A DNA stretch of 64,000 bases. Source: Candidatus Peregrinibacteria bacterium (GTDB taxonomy: Bacteria; Patescibacteriota; Gracilibacteria; UBA1369; UM-FILTER-53-11). The translations under genes and the position numbers were made by a program. The notes below the pieces were generated by a model. It ran no database searches, had not been told where the DNA came from, and saw only the letters and a program-made list of their open reading frames with translations. Positions 13,946 to 63,788 of the stretch are shown piece by piece. Numbering within the stretch: position 1 is the first letter of the stretch; the number at the start of each line of letters is the position of its first letter. The stretch lies in NCBI GenBank assembly GCA_016186205.1, contig JACPMA010000017.1, forward strand, positions 1 to 64,000. The letters are read 5' to 3'.

Positions 13946-13977
13946 CAACAGAAGCGCTTCGCTTTCTGTTGCGTGTT
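13946..13977 (-). other. Hairpin just 3' of ssrA (possible processing/termination structure)
   Basis: CGCAACAGAAAGCG-AAG-CGCTTCTGTTGCG on the minus strand with one bulge; no strong U-tract follows. Confidence 0.4.
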
Positions 13978-14401
13978 GGTGGAGATGGGGGGAATCGAAC
14001 CCCCGTCCAAGGATAAAGAGAGGCCACGTCTACAATCATAGTCCGTTTTGAATTTTTGTCCGTGCGGATAAAAAAGGAACAAAAAGCCCGCGCGGCTTAA
14101 GCATAAAATTTCGGCTCATCCGCATGCCGGCGGATTTGCTTGAGCCTCATGAGTTGCGCCTTTCGCGGTTATGAGGCCTTGCCGCAAGAGACGTCAGCCG
14201 ATAAAAATCAGCCGAGCACGATTAGGCAAAAGCCGGGACGCGCGCAGGAGCTCCGCGAAGAGCCTTGAGCGCACGGACAGTTGCCATTTCGCCTGCATTA
14301 GCAGTTAATTTGCGCTGGACGGATATAACGGGGGACAGCGCGACCCCGTGAATGCAGAAACCTGTCTTTCAAAGATCCCTGTCGAATACCGGTGCATCCC
14401 C
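13978..14401 (-). ncRNA. ssrA: tmRNA
   Basis: Minus 5' end GGGGATGCACCGGTATTCGACAGGG..., 3' end GGACGGGGGTTCGATTCCCCCCATCTCCACCA; tag ORF 14302-14222 = ANAGEMATVRALKALRGAPARVPAFA*. Confidence 0.92.
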
Positions 14402-24263: not shown

Positions 24264-24340
24264 CGGGGTGTAGCGCAGATGGCTAGCGCGCTTCGTTCGG
24301 GACGAAGAGGTCCCGGGTTCAAATCCCGGCACCCCGACCA
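24264..24340 (+). tRNA. tRNA-Pro(CGG)
   Basis: CGGGGTG acceptor, loop TTCGGGA, T-arm CCGGGTTCAAATCCCGG, encoded CCA. Confidence 0.93.
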
Positions 24341-24482
24341 GTATTAGATTTAATTTCGGTACCATTGGTTTTGTACAAAATGGGATTTGAATGCCGGACC
24401 GCGCGGGCACCCGAGCGGAGCGAAGGGTCGCGCGGGAGGCAAGCCGGCGCGCCGAGCGCGAAGAGCGCGAGGACGGCGCCGG

Positions 24483-24503
24483 CAAATCCCGGCACCCCGA
24501 CCA
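24483..24503 (+). repeat. Duplicate of tRNA-Pro 3' end
   Basis: CAAATCCCGGCACCCCGACCA identical to 24320-24340. Confidence 0.85.
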
Positions 24504-39611: not shown

Positions 39612-40727
39612 CTAAAACTGCTCTAAAAACCTTAAGTCGCCGCTGGAAAGCAGCCGAATATCATCAATTCCATATCGCATCATCACGAGCCGCGTGAGGC
39701 CGAAACCAAAAGCCCAACCTTGGTATTTTTTTGAATCAATGCCGCCGGCCTTGAGTACATTTGGATGCACCATTCCGGCACCCATGAATTCAAGCCAGCC
39801 TGTATGTTTGCACACGCGGCAGCCGGTTTCATTGCAAAGCAGGCAAGACATGTCGAGCTCCACGCCGGGCTCCACAAAAGGAAAATAGCCCGGTCGAAAT
39901 CTCACGCGTATCCCTTTATTTATAGGCTCGGCCTCACTCGCGCTGGCTGAGCCAGACGTTCGTTCGGCCATCGCGCTCGCGCCGTGCGCTCGCCCAAACA
40001 GCCGAGTTAAAAATTCCCGCATCACGCCTTTTAAATGCGCGAGTGAAATATCCCTATCAACAAGAAGCCCCTCCACTTGGCTGAAAGTGTGTTCGTGACT
40101 CGCGTCCGTGGCTTCGTTGCGAAACACGCGGCCCGGAACAATGATCCGGAGCGGCGCACCGTATTTTTCCATGGTCCGGACTTGTACCGGCGAAGTTTGC
40201 GTGCGCAGCACAAGGCGCCCATGTTTTTTGTCAGGCGTTTGTTTTAAGAAAAAAGTATCCTGCATGTCTCGCGCCGGGTGCCACGACGGTATATTAAGTC
40301 CTTCAAAGTTATAATATTCACTCTCCGCTTCCGGTCCGTCCATAATTGCGAAACCCATGTCGCTGAAAATTTGCTCAACTTCATATTGGACCTGCGACAG
40401 TGGATGAATATGGCCGATGTTATACTTTGCGCCCGGAGCCGTGACATCAACCCACGCATCAGAAAGTTTTTTTTGAATGTCTGCGCTATCAATTTGTTCC
40501 TGTTGCCGCGCAAAAGCTTCTTCAAGCGCTTGTTTGATTTCATTGCACATGCGTCCCATGGCCGGCTTTTCTTCTTTTGGCAGATCCGCAATGCCTTGCA
40601 TCAAAAGCGTCAGCTCGCCTTTGCGGCCAAGATATTTTACTTGAACTTGGTAGAGCGCTTCTGCGGACGCTGCCTTTTCAATTTCCGCCAAAGCCTGCGT
40701 TTTTATCTTTCCTAAGAGCTCTTGCAT
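39612..40727 (-). CDS. pheS: Phenylalanyl-tRNA synthetase alpha subunit
   Basis: HPLSQVQYEVEQIFSDMGF, GPEAESEYYNFEGLNIPSWHPARDMQDTFFL, EATDASHEHTFSQVEGLLVD. Confidence 0.95.
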   Translation of the reverse strand: MQELLGKIKTQALAEIEKAASAEALYQVQVKYLGRKGELTLLMQGIADLPKEEKPAMGRMCNEIKQALEEAFARQQEQIDSADIQKKLSDAWVDVTAPGAKYNIGHIHPLSQVQYEVEQIFSDMGFAIMDGPEAESEYYNFEGLNIPSWHPARDMQDTFFLKQTPDKKHGRLVLRTQTSPVQVRTMEKYGAPLRIIVPGRVFRNEATDASHEHTFSQVEGLLVDRDISLAHLKGVMREFLTRLFGRAHGASAMAERTSGSASASEAEPINKGIRVRFRPGYFPFVEPGVELDMSCLLCNETGCRVCKHTGWLEFMGAGMVHPNVLKAGGIDSKKYQGWAFGFGLTRLVMMRYGIDDIRLLSSGDLRFLEQF

Positions 40728-40805
40728 ACGCAAGATACTTTACTATAAAGAGATGCCGTGATACAATTCAGACGTGGTCCTTGCTGCCATGAAAGATTAG
40801 CAAGG

Positions 40806-40846
40806 TGGTTGACCGGTGGGGATTAATATAATCCCTTGACCCGCCA
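40806..40846 (-). ncRNA. tRNA-like minihelix (acceptor-like stem + one hairpin + ACCA)
   Basis: TGGCGGGT-CAA-GGGATTA-TAT-TAATCCC-C-ACCGGTCA-ACCA; ends match the 71-nt tRNA-like RNA upstream. Confidence 0.35.
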
Positions 40847-40850
40847 AAAG

Positions 40851-40876
40851 AGAAGGAACATTAGGTTCCTTTTTCT
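40851..40876. terminator. Hairpin with flanking T-rich tracts on both strands
   Basis: AAGGAAC-ATTAG-GTTCCTTTTTC; minus side ends CTCTTTT. Confidence 0.5.
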
Positions 40877-40897
40877 TTAATTTAAAAATCGCCAATG

Positions 40898-40968
40898 TGG
40901 TTGACGGGAGGAGAATCGAACTCCCCTGCCGAGGTGCTAACCCTCGGTTGTCACCATTGACCCCGCCA
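40898..40968 (-). ncRNA. Atypical tRNA or tRNA-like RNA, 71 nt
   Basis: TGGCGGG...CCCGTCA acceptor pairing, T-arm GGGAG-TTCGATT-CTCCT, CCGAGG-GTTAGCA-CCTCGG arm, encoded ACCA, but truncated D region. Confidence 0.6.
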
Positions 40969-41129
40969 GCGTCATTGGCGTGGTGGCTATACCATACACT
41001 CATGAAATTTCTATAAACTTTTTGTGACACCCAAAATCCACCGTGGCGGATTTAAGCTTTATACAAAACAAAAAAACCTTATTGTAATTTCAGAAAAATT
41101 TTCTATTTCCTCATACGGTTTCTTAACAA

Positions 41130-41186
41130 AAAATCCCCTCTGGCTTCGACAGGCTAGAGCCTGACATAAACCCAAGAGGGGATTTT
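41130..41186 (-). terminator. Rho-independent terminator of the HU gene
   Basis: 12-bp arms AAAATCCCCTCT/AGAGGGGATTTT, minus-strand T6 tract; loop holds a CTTCGACAGGCT...AGCCTGACA repeat-like sequence. Confidence 0.8.
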
Positions 41187-41200
41187 CTTCTTGTTCAATA

Positions 41201-41476
41201 CTATCTAACAGCGTCCTTGAGAGATTTGCCGGCCTTGAAAGCTGGAAGCTTCATGGCTGGGATTTTGATTCTCTCGCCCGGCTTGCGTGGATTTACACCC
41301 ATGCGTGCCGCTCTTTTGGAAACGCGGAACGTGCCGAAACCTGTGACGGTTACGTTCTCTCCTTTCTTGAGAGATTTGGTAATATTACCGAGTACTGCTT
41401 CGAGAATTTCCGAAGCTTGCCGTTTGGTGACGCCGGTAGCCGTGGCTGCCGCGTTCACGAGATCTTGCTTTGTCAT
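41201..41476 (-). CDS. HU-family DNA-binding protein
   Basis: MTKQDLVNAAATATGVTKRQASEILEAVLGNITKSLKKGENVTVTGFGTFRVSKRAARMGVNPRKPGERIKIPA. Confidence 0.95.
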   Translation of the reverse strand: MTKQDLVNAAATATGVTKRQASEILEAVLGNITKSLKKGENVTVTGFGTFRVSKRAARMGVNPRKPGERIKIPAMKLPAFKAGKSLKDAVR

Positions 41477-62416: not shown

Positions 62417-63265
62417 ATGAAAAAAATTGTAAAAATCGGCCTAGTTCAAATGGCTTGCAGTAAAGATGCGGATGCAAATCTTAAAAAAGCTGTTGCCGGA
62501 ATTGAAGATTGCGCTTCGCGCGGCGCGCAAATCATCTGCCTGCCGGAACTTTTTTTGAATCCTTATTTTTGCCAAGGACCGAAAGACGATCATTATTTTG
62601 ATTTGGCGGAAAAGATTCCCGGCCCAACTACGGATGCGCTCGCTAAACTCGCTCAAAAAACAAAAACCGTAATTCTATGCCCTTTATTTGAAAAAACAGC
62701 TGCAGGAAAATTTTTCAATTCCATTGCAGTGTTGAATACAGACGGAAAATTTCTCGGCACATACCGCAAAATGCATATTCCGTCGTTGCCGCCGGATTTT
62801 TATGCAGAAGATTATTATTTTGAAAAAGGGGAGGAGGGTTTTAAAGTTTTCGATACGGCCTACGCAAAAATTGGGCCTATGATTTGTTATGATCAATGGT
62901 TTCCGGAAGGGGCAAGAATCGCTGCAGCAAAAGGCGCGCAGATTTTATTTTATCCGACAGCCATCGGATGGCCGGTAAATCAATCGCAGGAAAAAAGCTC
63001 TGCTGAACATGAAGCATGGCAAATCACGCAGCGCAGTCACGGCATCGATAATAATGTATTTGTTTGCGCCGCGAATCGAGTTGGCCGCGAAGGAGATTTA
63101 AAATTCTGGGGTACTTCTTTTGTGAGTGATCCCTATGGTCGGGTTTTAGCAAAAGCTTCGATTGACCACGAAGAAAATCTCGTAGTTGCGTGCGATCTTT
63201 CGCTTATTGATGAGATGCGCAAGGAGTGGCCGTTTTTGGAAGAGAGACGCATTAAGTTAGCCTGA
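62417..63265 (+). CDS. aguB: N-carbamoylputrescine amidase
   Basis: VKIGLVQMACSKDADANLKKA, IICLPELFLNPYFCQ, YRKMHIP, GPMICYDQWFPEGARIAAAKGAQILFYPTAIGWP. Confidence 0.9.
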   Translation: MKKIVKIGLVQMACSKDADANLKKAVAGIEDCASRGAQIICLPELFLNPYFCQGPKDDHYFDLAEKIPGPTTDALAKLAQKTKTVILCPLFEKTAAGKFFNSIAVLNTDGKFLGTYRKMHIPSLPPDFYAEDYYFEKGEEGFKVFDTAYAKIGPMICYDQWFPEGARIAAAKGAQILFYPTAIGWPVNQSQEKSSAEHEAWQITQRSHGIDNNVFVCAANRVGREGDLKFWGTSFVSDPYGRVLAKASIDHEENLVVACDLSLIDEMRKEWPFLEERRIKLA

Positions 63266-63788
63266 ATCCGATTGACTGTTTCGGTTTTTCTTCGACCGCC
63301 AATAATTTTTTAATGACGTCAAAGATTATACGAAACTGTTTATCGTATCTTTTTTCTAGCTTCTCAATTTTTTCCTTGAGTTCTCGGTGGGTTGCGAGCA
63401 TTTCCCTAAGTTTTGTAAAAGTGCGCATAATTTGGATATTAACTTGGATCGCGCGTTCGCTATTGAGTACGCTAGATAACATAGCTACACCCTGTTCAGT
63501 AAATGCGTAGGCATGATATCTTCTGCCTCCGTAACTTGAGGTCACAATTTGTGACCTCAAGTTTGAGGTCGCCATATATAATGACCAAATTTTCATTTCT
63601 CTATTATTTAGCCGAAACATAAAATCGGCCGGGAATCGTTTTATATTCCTCCGAACAGCCTGGTTTAACGCCTTTGTCTTGACGTCATATAAAGCGGCTA
63701 GATGATTGTCGAGTATTACTTTCTTTCCCCGAATCAAAAATATCTTCCTCTCTATTCTTGCATGCGGTAGTGTTATGGCGCGCGTCAT
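63252..63788 (-). CDS. ORF6N-domain DNA-binding protein
   Basis: IRGKKVILDNHLAALYDVKTKALNQAVRRNIKRFPADFMFRLN...AYAFTEQGVAMLSSVLNSERAIQVNIQIMRTF. Confidence 0.88.
   Translation of the reverse strand: MTRAITLPHARIERKIFLIRGKKVILDNHLAALYDVKTKALNQAVRRNIKRFPADFMFRLNNREMKIWSLYMATSNLRSQIVTSSYGGRRYHAYAFTEQGVAMLSSVLNSERAIQVNIQIMRTFTKLREMLATHRELKEKIEKLEKRYDKQFRIIFDVIKKLLAVEEKPKQSIGFRLT

Follow-up and report, generated by a model that had tools for sequence, protein, structure and literature searches.

The question raised by a 64,000-nucleotide stretch of DNA from a Candidatus Peregrinibacteria bacterium (positions 1 to 64,000 of contig JACPMA010000017.1, assembly GCA_016186205.1; hereafter the window) is what kind of RNA is encoded by a unit resembling a transfer RNA (tRNA), which is present on its minus strand upstream of the gene pheS. 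Based on the results described here, this element is probably a regulated small RNA, and the locus may constitute a two-gene RNA module, in which an alanine-tRNA mimic encoded by the minus strand is accompanied by a short antisense RNA encoded by the plus strand. We consider it highly probable that RNA:antisense pairs of this kind are real and that they are regulated together with the genes for competence (natural transformation). The parts of the element are as follows.

40890-40980, minus strand: tRNA-like unit including the outer helix, 91 nt, with letters and helices exactly as described in an earlier sequence-only reading of this DNA
40898..40968, minus strand: tRNA-like core, 71 nt, based on letters, fold, covariation and position counts
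40973..40980, minus strand: 5' strand of the outer helix, CGCCAATG, the predicted transcript start being located approximately here
40890..40897, minus strand: 3' strand of the outer helix, CATTGGCG, based on letters and on covariation in the family
40846..40878, both strands: bidirectional terminator hairpin common to the tRNA-like gene (minus) and the antisense gene (plus), with terminator-like sites on both strands at 40850-40874

The core (TGGCGGG GTCA ATGG TGAC AA CCGAGG GTTAGCA CCTCGG CAG GGGAG TTCGATT CTCCT CCCGTCA A CCA) consists of a 7-bp acceptor with G3:U70, a D-like arm of 4 bp with a 4-nt loop containing GG, a 6-bp anticodon-like arm, a T-arm, A73 and CCA. The minimum free energy fold of the element is identical to the drawn structure (-45.8 kcal/mol; z = -4.9; 0 of 200 shuffles equally good), and the presence of a genuine tRNA-like structure at 40890-40980 is confirmed. 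The sequence-only reading of a 71-nt tRNA-like RNA with a truncated D region inside an outer 8-bp helix is thus borne out by the same letters, by this fold and by covariation, and its description of the element as a non-canonical tRNA mimic with a real T-arm and ACCA end is also supported. Of its further proposal, that the outer helix together with a run of five T residues forms the terminator, the helix stands, as it covaries and is 90.6% paired among 85 members of the family, but the terminator role probably does not, as another hairpin, which has T-tracts on either strand, lies 3' of the element at 40846-40878 and is found at the same place in most copies. Similarly, the UAG anticodon with C37 that had been noted is one reading of the loop, to which AGC or a four-base UAGC is an equally good alternative, as the loop in most members has the form U33-(Y)-RNN-A, with GUC, GAC, GAG and AAG being common.

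The element is not reported as a tRNA by ARAGORN or, at the family cut-off, by the Rfam tRNA model (RF00005), and in a permissive Rfam search its best tRNA-type score was for tRNA-Sec (17 bits, E 1.3). A genome-wide Rfam tRNA search likewise did not score it as an ordinary tRNA, the window locus being absent from the 47 matches over the cut-off. The anticodons read at 30 of these 47 loci include three for Ala, Val-GAC and Thr-GGT, and therefore the element is not a missing essential tRNA. It lacks a standard D-arm, positions 8-9 and a 5-nt variable loop. In comparison with tRNA-Ala, the acceptor, the T-arm and the alanine identity nucleotides are also present in the mimic, whereas positions 8-9 are missing, the D-loop is of 4 nt, the variable loop is of 3 nt and the anticodon loop is deviant; further, the mimic differs in having an outer helix, a competence promoter and an antisense partner.

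A second copy of the element, which is 76% identical by BLAST, is located on another contig of the same genome. The acceptor, anticodon-like and T stems of this copy are changed on both sides, every helix being kept by means of compensatory changes, and the homology between the two copies reaches about 110 bp upstream. A covariance model based on these two copies identified further members in the window genome and in its family, a second model identified members across the order, and a third extended the family to further orders and classes of the phylum; genuine tRNAs, which also scored in these searches, were removed by eye and by ARAGORN, the E-values of such home-made models are rough and the genomes are mostly metagenome-assembled. 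Judged by its sequence, the element belongs to an RNA family that occurs in multiple copies in Ca. Peregrinibacteria/Peribacteria and in other Patescibacteria, and which is represented by at least seven reduced copies and three fuller copies in the window genome. Based on the relatives of its PheS, the source organism is itself assigned to Ca. Peregrinibacteria/Peribacteria. BLAST searches with the element against 58 relatives returned T-arm pieces only; divergence within the family is too rapid for this method, and its detection requires covariance models. An exact pattern search of viral contigs gave 10 matches with no convincing members. Outside the phylum, where absence was checked in about 150 genomes only, limited negatives were obtained for seven named non-Patescibacteria genomes (Clostridia, Gammaproteobacteria, Verrucomicrobiota; none at 1e-10) and for 146 genomes of Verrucomicrobiota, the phylum of genome G638 (none at 1e-13).

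Selection on the structure is demonstrated, at the level of compared sequences, by an alignment of 85 members, in which 26 of the 29 pairs are changed on both sides and double-change cells number 867 vs 252 in shuffles, slid controls collapsing; this alignment was fitted to the model, and a two-sequence test with plain MAFFT and a 13-sequence test agree with it. G3:U70, A73, the G53-TTC of the T-loop, A58 and C61 are invariant in all 85 members, although the model used to find them itself carried G:U at 3:70, which introduces a mild bias into this count, and the D-loop G is present in 84 of 85. G3:U70 and A73 are the established identity elements for alanyl-tRNA synthetase (AlaRS), an enzyme which does not read the anticodon, and the acceptor of every aligned member thus has the identity of an alanine acceptor. 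In one member, L126 of genome G018, an insertion of about 28 nt is present in the T-arm. The three fuller copies of the window genome (L119, L120 and L267), which are called by ARAGORN as Ser-TGA, Ala-TGC and Ser-TGA, respectively, have normal D-arms, the competence box described below and a CCA that is paired inside the outer helix (in L119 and L120, CGCCTGGT..ACCAGGCG).

The promoter of the element connects it with competence. Its parts, and a second box of the same kind in the window, are as follows.

40986..40991, minus strand: extended -10 element TGG-TATAGC of the tRNA-like gene, conserved in copies
41002..41029, minus strand: competence-type box TGTCAC-N5-GTTTAT-N5-TTTCAT, consisting of repeats spaced by 11 bp, which replaces the -35 element
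41034..41053, no strand assigned: near-palindromic conserved hairpin AAATCCGCCACGGTGGATTT upstream of the box, which precedes most tRNA-like and com-gene boxes of the genome
63817..63844, minus strand: second box, upstream of an ORF6N-domain gene at about 63252-63788, minus strand (Pfam ORF6N, E 2e-31)

In 97 elements, the 11-bp period of the upstream repeats has z = 18, as against z = 4.3 for the runner-up among the periods 5-16. With up to two mismatches, the box occurs 20 times in the window genome, compared with once for the reversed pattern. Ten of these boxes are at tRNA-like genes (seven reduced, three fuller) and the others are found before dprA, ssb, comFC, comM/YifB, a gene for a ComEC-type nuclease, an NYN gene, an ORF6N gene and two lipoprotein-like genes, the last of the 20 being a probable chance match. 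The element thus has a regulatory sequence in common with core com genes, which drive transformation in a cultured Patescibacterium (PMC10633639). An interpretation of the 11-bp repeats as PhoB (phosphate) boxes was considered and dropped, as the genes sharing the box are competence genes. Most com-type promoters of this genome have a near-perfect palindrome (e.g. CACAAAAATCCACCGCGGTGGATTTTTGTG) upstream of the 11-bp repeats, the promoter-like TTTTTGTTTGATAGAAG standing before it, and compensatory differences between the palindrome copies suggest that it may act as a hairpin or as an operator.

A similar grouping of genes is seen in other families. In genome G019, which represents a second family and was covered in 68 stretches by a scan with a matrix trained only on the tRNA-like promoters of its group, 36 matches were found as against 4 for the reversed matrix, and they include recA, comEC, dprA, ssb, comM, comFC, yraN, KilA-N/ORF6N genes and HicA and Phd/YefM-like genes. 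In a third family (f19) the promoter has instead a LexA-like palindrome, GTGTACGNNYGTAC, which is an unrelated operator; its sites are located upstream of tRNA-like genes, lexA itself, ssb, comM, a ComEC-type nuclease gene and REP-transposase-like genes, and the reversed control gave 0 matches in four genomes. The same RNAs are thus grouped with the same DNA-uptake genes under two unrelated operators. In family f4, the matches to a strict promoter pattern are tRNA-like genes only, a result which is uninformative. Two further observations concern these regulons. At two loci of G019, L350 (from 2194, plus strand) and L334 (from 6800, minus strand), competence-type promoters are followed by a near-identical GCGTCATAGGAAATACGC with no reading frame, which is perhaps another small RNA of the regulon. 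At L243 and L252 of f19, genes resembling REP-associated tyrosine transposases are found under the LexA-like operator of the competence genes and tRNA-like RNAs.

The second gene of the proposed module is located on the plus strand of the window.

40739-40880, plus strand: antisense gene overall, from promoter to terminator
40739..40767, plus strand: antisense promoter (TTTACT, 17 nt, TG-TACAAT), the sole promoter-like site found in 40600-41250
40772..40880, plus strand: predicted antisense RNA of about 109 nt with approximate ends, between promoter and terminator, complementary at two places
40804..40815, plus strand: segment complementary to the acceptor 3' strand and ACCAC end; the equivalent segment at the copy L020 matches L020 instead
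40836..40847, plus strand: segment complementary to the acceptor 5' strand and the start of the D-arm, based on sequence comparison

One antisense promoter of this kind is within shuffle expectation (mean 0.6), and therefore the argument is based on its position rather than its existence. The predicted antisense RNA has a stable fold (z = -3.5), and in the window it covers the acceptor strands and the ACCAC end, not the loop. In the family, a terminator hairpin precedes or follows most elements, together with a piece of the element's own sequence. This piece represents the complementary strand of a small gene, and it lies downstream on the opposite strand in 62 cases, upstream on the opposite strand in 15 and downstream on the same strand in 7; the same-strand pieces are reverse complements, six of them behind TATAAT. 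That the downstream pieces are direct repeats or att sites was also considered, and was rejected as the tandem cases are reverse complements behind a promoter of their own. A flank match of at least 24 to the element's own core is found for 76 of 97 elements, and the control formed by mismatched element/flank pairs (99th percentile 23) is exceeded downstream by 61 and upstream by 14 of the 97. The start of complementarity is adjoined by a perfect TATAAT in 41 of 85 cases, against a background of 1.8%, and 3-7 nt usually separate this hexamer from the complementary stretch that follows it. The mean duplex energy is -40.4 kcal/mol for cognate pairs and -22.6 kcal/mol for non-cognate pairs; the cognate ranks first in 19 of 84 cases and among the top three in 70 of 84, and we think that this ranking arises because a few antisense sequences containing T-arm complements bind everything. 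The antisense usually starts at the anticodon loop and tracks each loop's sequence, and a YUNR/U-turn motif is present in the loop region in 78 of 84. Loops of this kind are known to speed antisense pairing (PMC6562991), and by analogy the anticodon loop would be a natural U-turn entry point for an antisense RNA. Most members thus have the predicted arrangement of an RNA-RNA toxin-antitoxin pair, viz. an adjacent, separately promoted complementary RNA specific to its own copy.

Based on these results, the following model is proposed. The mimic, in which a full acceptor and a T-arm are combined with a minimal D-arm and with an anticodon-like arm that varies among the copies, would be transcribed when the competence regulon is on, whereas the antisense RNA would be made from a sigma70-type promoter, would be specific to its own mimic and would end at the same terminator hairpin. 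Its 5' end would pair with the U-turn anticodon loop in most members, and with the acceptor and CCA end in the window copy. Outside competence, the antisense RNA would neutralise leaky mimic. On induction, the mimic would exceed the antisense and, after processing, would probably be charged with alanine, bind EF-Tu or the ribosome, and slow or miscode translation, thereby serving as a regulated growth brake wired like the toxin/antisense pairs induced by the SOS response. Because AlaRS ignores the anticodon, an alanine acceptor joined to an arbitrary anticodon would be the most economical form of a miscoding or ribosome-engaging tRNA. We give this full model, of competence-induced chargeable mimics that act on translation or growth and are restrained by antisense in a toxin-antitoxin-like RNA:RNA pair, an even chance of being correct.

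Several observations weigh against this model. The CCA is enclosed in the outer helix, from which processing would have to release it, and an encoded CCA is absent from some members. Given the minimal D-arm and the lack of positions 8-9, use of the mimic by the ribosome is uncertain. About one fifth of the members are without a clear antisense by the above threshold, none was found for L119 and L120 (the two of the three fuller copies that were tested), and 7 of 28 genuine tRNAs of the window genome also reach a flank match of 24, in four of these due to an unrelated 21-nt duplication of the 3' end. The best flank match of the window copy is 18-21, just under the threshold, and therefore the antisense assignment there is based on its equivalence with L020 and on the promoter/terminator scan. 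Further, we know of no toxin of this kind.

The same RNAs could instead serve for decoding in the competent state, as alanine-charged tRNAs that read certain NNY codons or four-base codons (such as GACA/GACG) and thereby re-programme translation instead of poisoning it, with the antisense only limiting leak. The U33-(Y)-RNN-A loops with their common triplets are in accordance with such a role, ARAGORN independently proposes four-base anticodons for several members, and any anticodon could be paired with alanine by an enzyme blind to it. However, the loops vary freely among paralogues, the com-regulon frames that were seen are intact and can be read without a special tRNA, the D-arm is reduced to a minimum and the window antisense aims at the acceptor end rather than the loop, and we regard this explanation as unlikely. 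It is more doubtful still that the mimics donate alanine in non-ribosomal reactions (e.g. for aminoacylation of peptidoglycan or lipids during transformation), with an anticodon arm free to drift. The universal alanine identity and the variable anticodon arm would be accounted for in this manner, and tRNA-dependent Fem/MurM and MprF enzymes of the required type exist elsewhere; however, the antisense start tracks the sequence of each loop, so the loop is functionally watched, and none of the boxes examined was seen at a gene for such an enzyme.

A scaffold similar to Y RNA, whose outer helix binds a protein ring while the tRNA-like domain tethers an RNase and alters RNA decay, has a lower probability again. 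To our knowledge, Y RNAs have no dedicated antisense genes. The bacterial Y RNA YrlA also combines a stem formed by its paired 5' and 3' ends with a tRNA-like domain (PMC8394870), but the mimic has no match to Y-RNA models (YrlA) in Rfam, it has a full acceptor of chargeable appearance and an antisense partner, and the invariant G3:U70 and A73, together with the CCA end, point to aminoacylation. The sequence-only reading had proposed a tRNA-mimic regulator of pheS, since the element is upstream of this gene on the same strand. This arrangement is not conserved: among 42 named pheS loci of relatives, with flanks of up to 3 kb, there was one convincing element, located about 110 nt beyond the 3' end of pheS and on the minus strand, and the family occurs at many unrelated loci. 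Further, the element is equipped with a promoter and a terminator of its own, it is separated from pheS by a convergent antisense gene, and its identity is Ala, not Phe, which makes a leader of this kind very improbable. A T-box was rejected on the same grounds of promoter, terminator and intervening gene, and the T-box models of Rfam have no match at the element. The least credible explanation, to which we assign almost no weight, is that of a decayed tRNA or functionless mobile tRNA-derived repeat; the family is multicopy and tRNA-like, as this would require, but the massive compensatory change and the regulatory wiring kept in three families are contrary to it.

The proposed module, viz. 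a mimic and its antisense RNA under competence control, can also be compared with other known systems. Transfer-messenger RNA (tmRNA) also has G3:U70. It resembles the mimic in having an Ala-type tRNA-like domain with CCA, and it is alanylated and delivered by EF-Tu (PMC8394870); however, the 91-nt unit has no mRNA-like domain with a tag frame, and a tmRNA is encoded separately, at 13977-14401 of the window (minus strand). The predicted tag of this tmRNA, ANAGEMATVRALKALRGAPARVPAFA, is unusually long and arginine/alanine-rich. The genes tisB, symE and dinQ are LexA-controlled, each with an antisense antitoxin, and in tisB/IstR-1, dinQ/AgrB and symE/SymR, as proposed here, a damage-response promoter drives a toxin RNA which is checked by a complementary antisense, encoded for tisB and dinQ by a neighbouring gene of its own (PMC4147584). 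In contrast to these type I pairs, the regulated RNA here is a structured tRNA mimic with no evident frame, and the regulon combines DNA uptake and SOS. CreTA, similarly, is a pair of two RNAs, and the supply of tRNA is the target of its toxin RNA, but CreT sequesters a rare tRNA via a mini open reading frame and CreA needs the CRISPR effector (PMC8501985), whereas here a cloverleaf-like RNA is accompanied by a plain antisense. No description of the present arrangement was found in the literature, though most subscription journals and preprints were outside the reach of the search.

An observation on other tRNA genes of this genome may also be recorded. Four genuine tRNA genes, viz. Pro-CGG (24264-24503 of the window, plus strand), Val-TAC, Arg-TCT and Gln-TTG (L278, L280 and L302), are each followed by a spacer and then by a GC-rich stretch of about 95 nt ending in an exact 21-nt copy of the tRNA's own 3' end; the stretch in the window, after Pro-CGG, folds strongly. 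The GC-rich stretch could be either a small insertion accompanied by an att-like duplication or a structured RNA in which a 3' piece of a tRNA is included.

Whether these pairs represent a new toxin-antitoxin-like class, in which the effector is a chargeable Ala-tRNA mimic, the antisense reads its loop or acceptor and the whole operates within the transformation programme of several lineages, is a proposal to which we give slightly less than an even chance. If correct, a family of tRNA mimics with dedicated antisense partners would be added to the known kinds of small RNAs, and it would be the first RNA layer of competence in Patescibacteria, where natural transformation serves as a genetic tool (PMC10633639). 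In addition, the promoter boxes in common provide a sequence handle by which the competence regulon could be mapped in these bacteria, most of which are uncultured.
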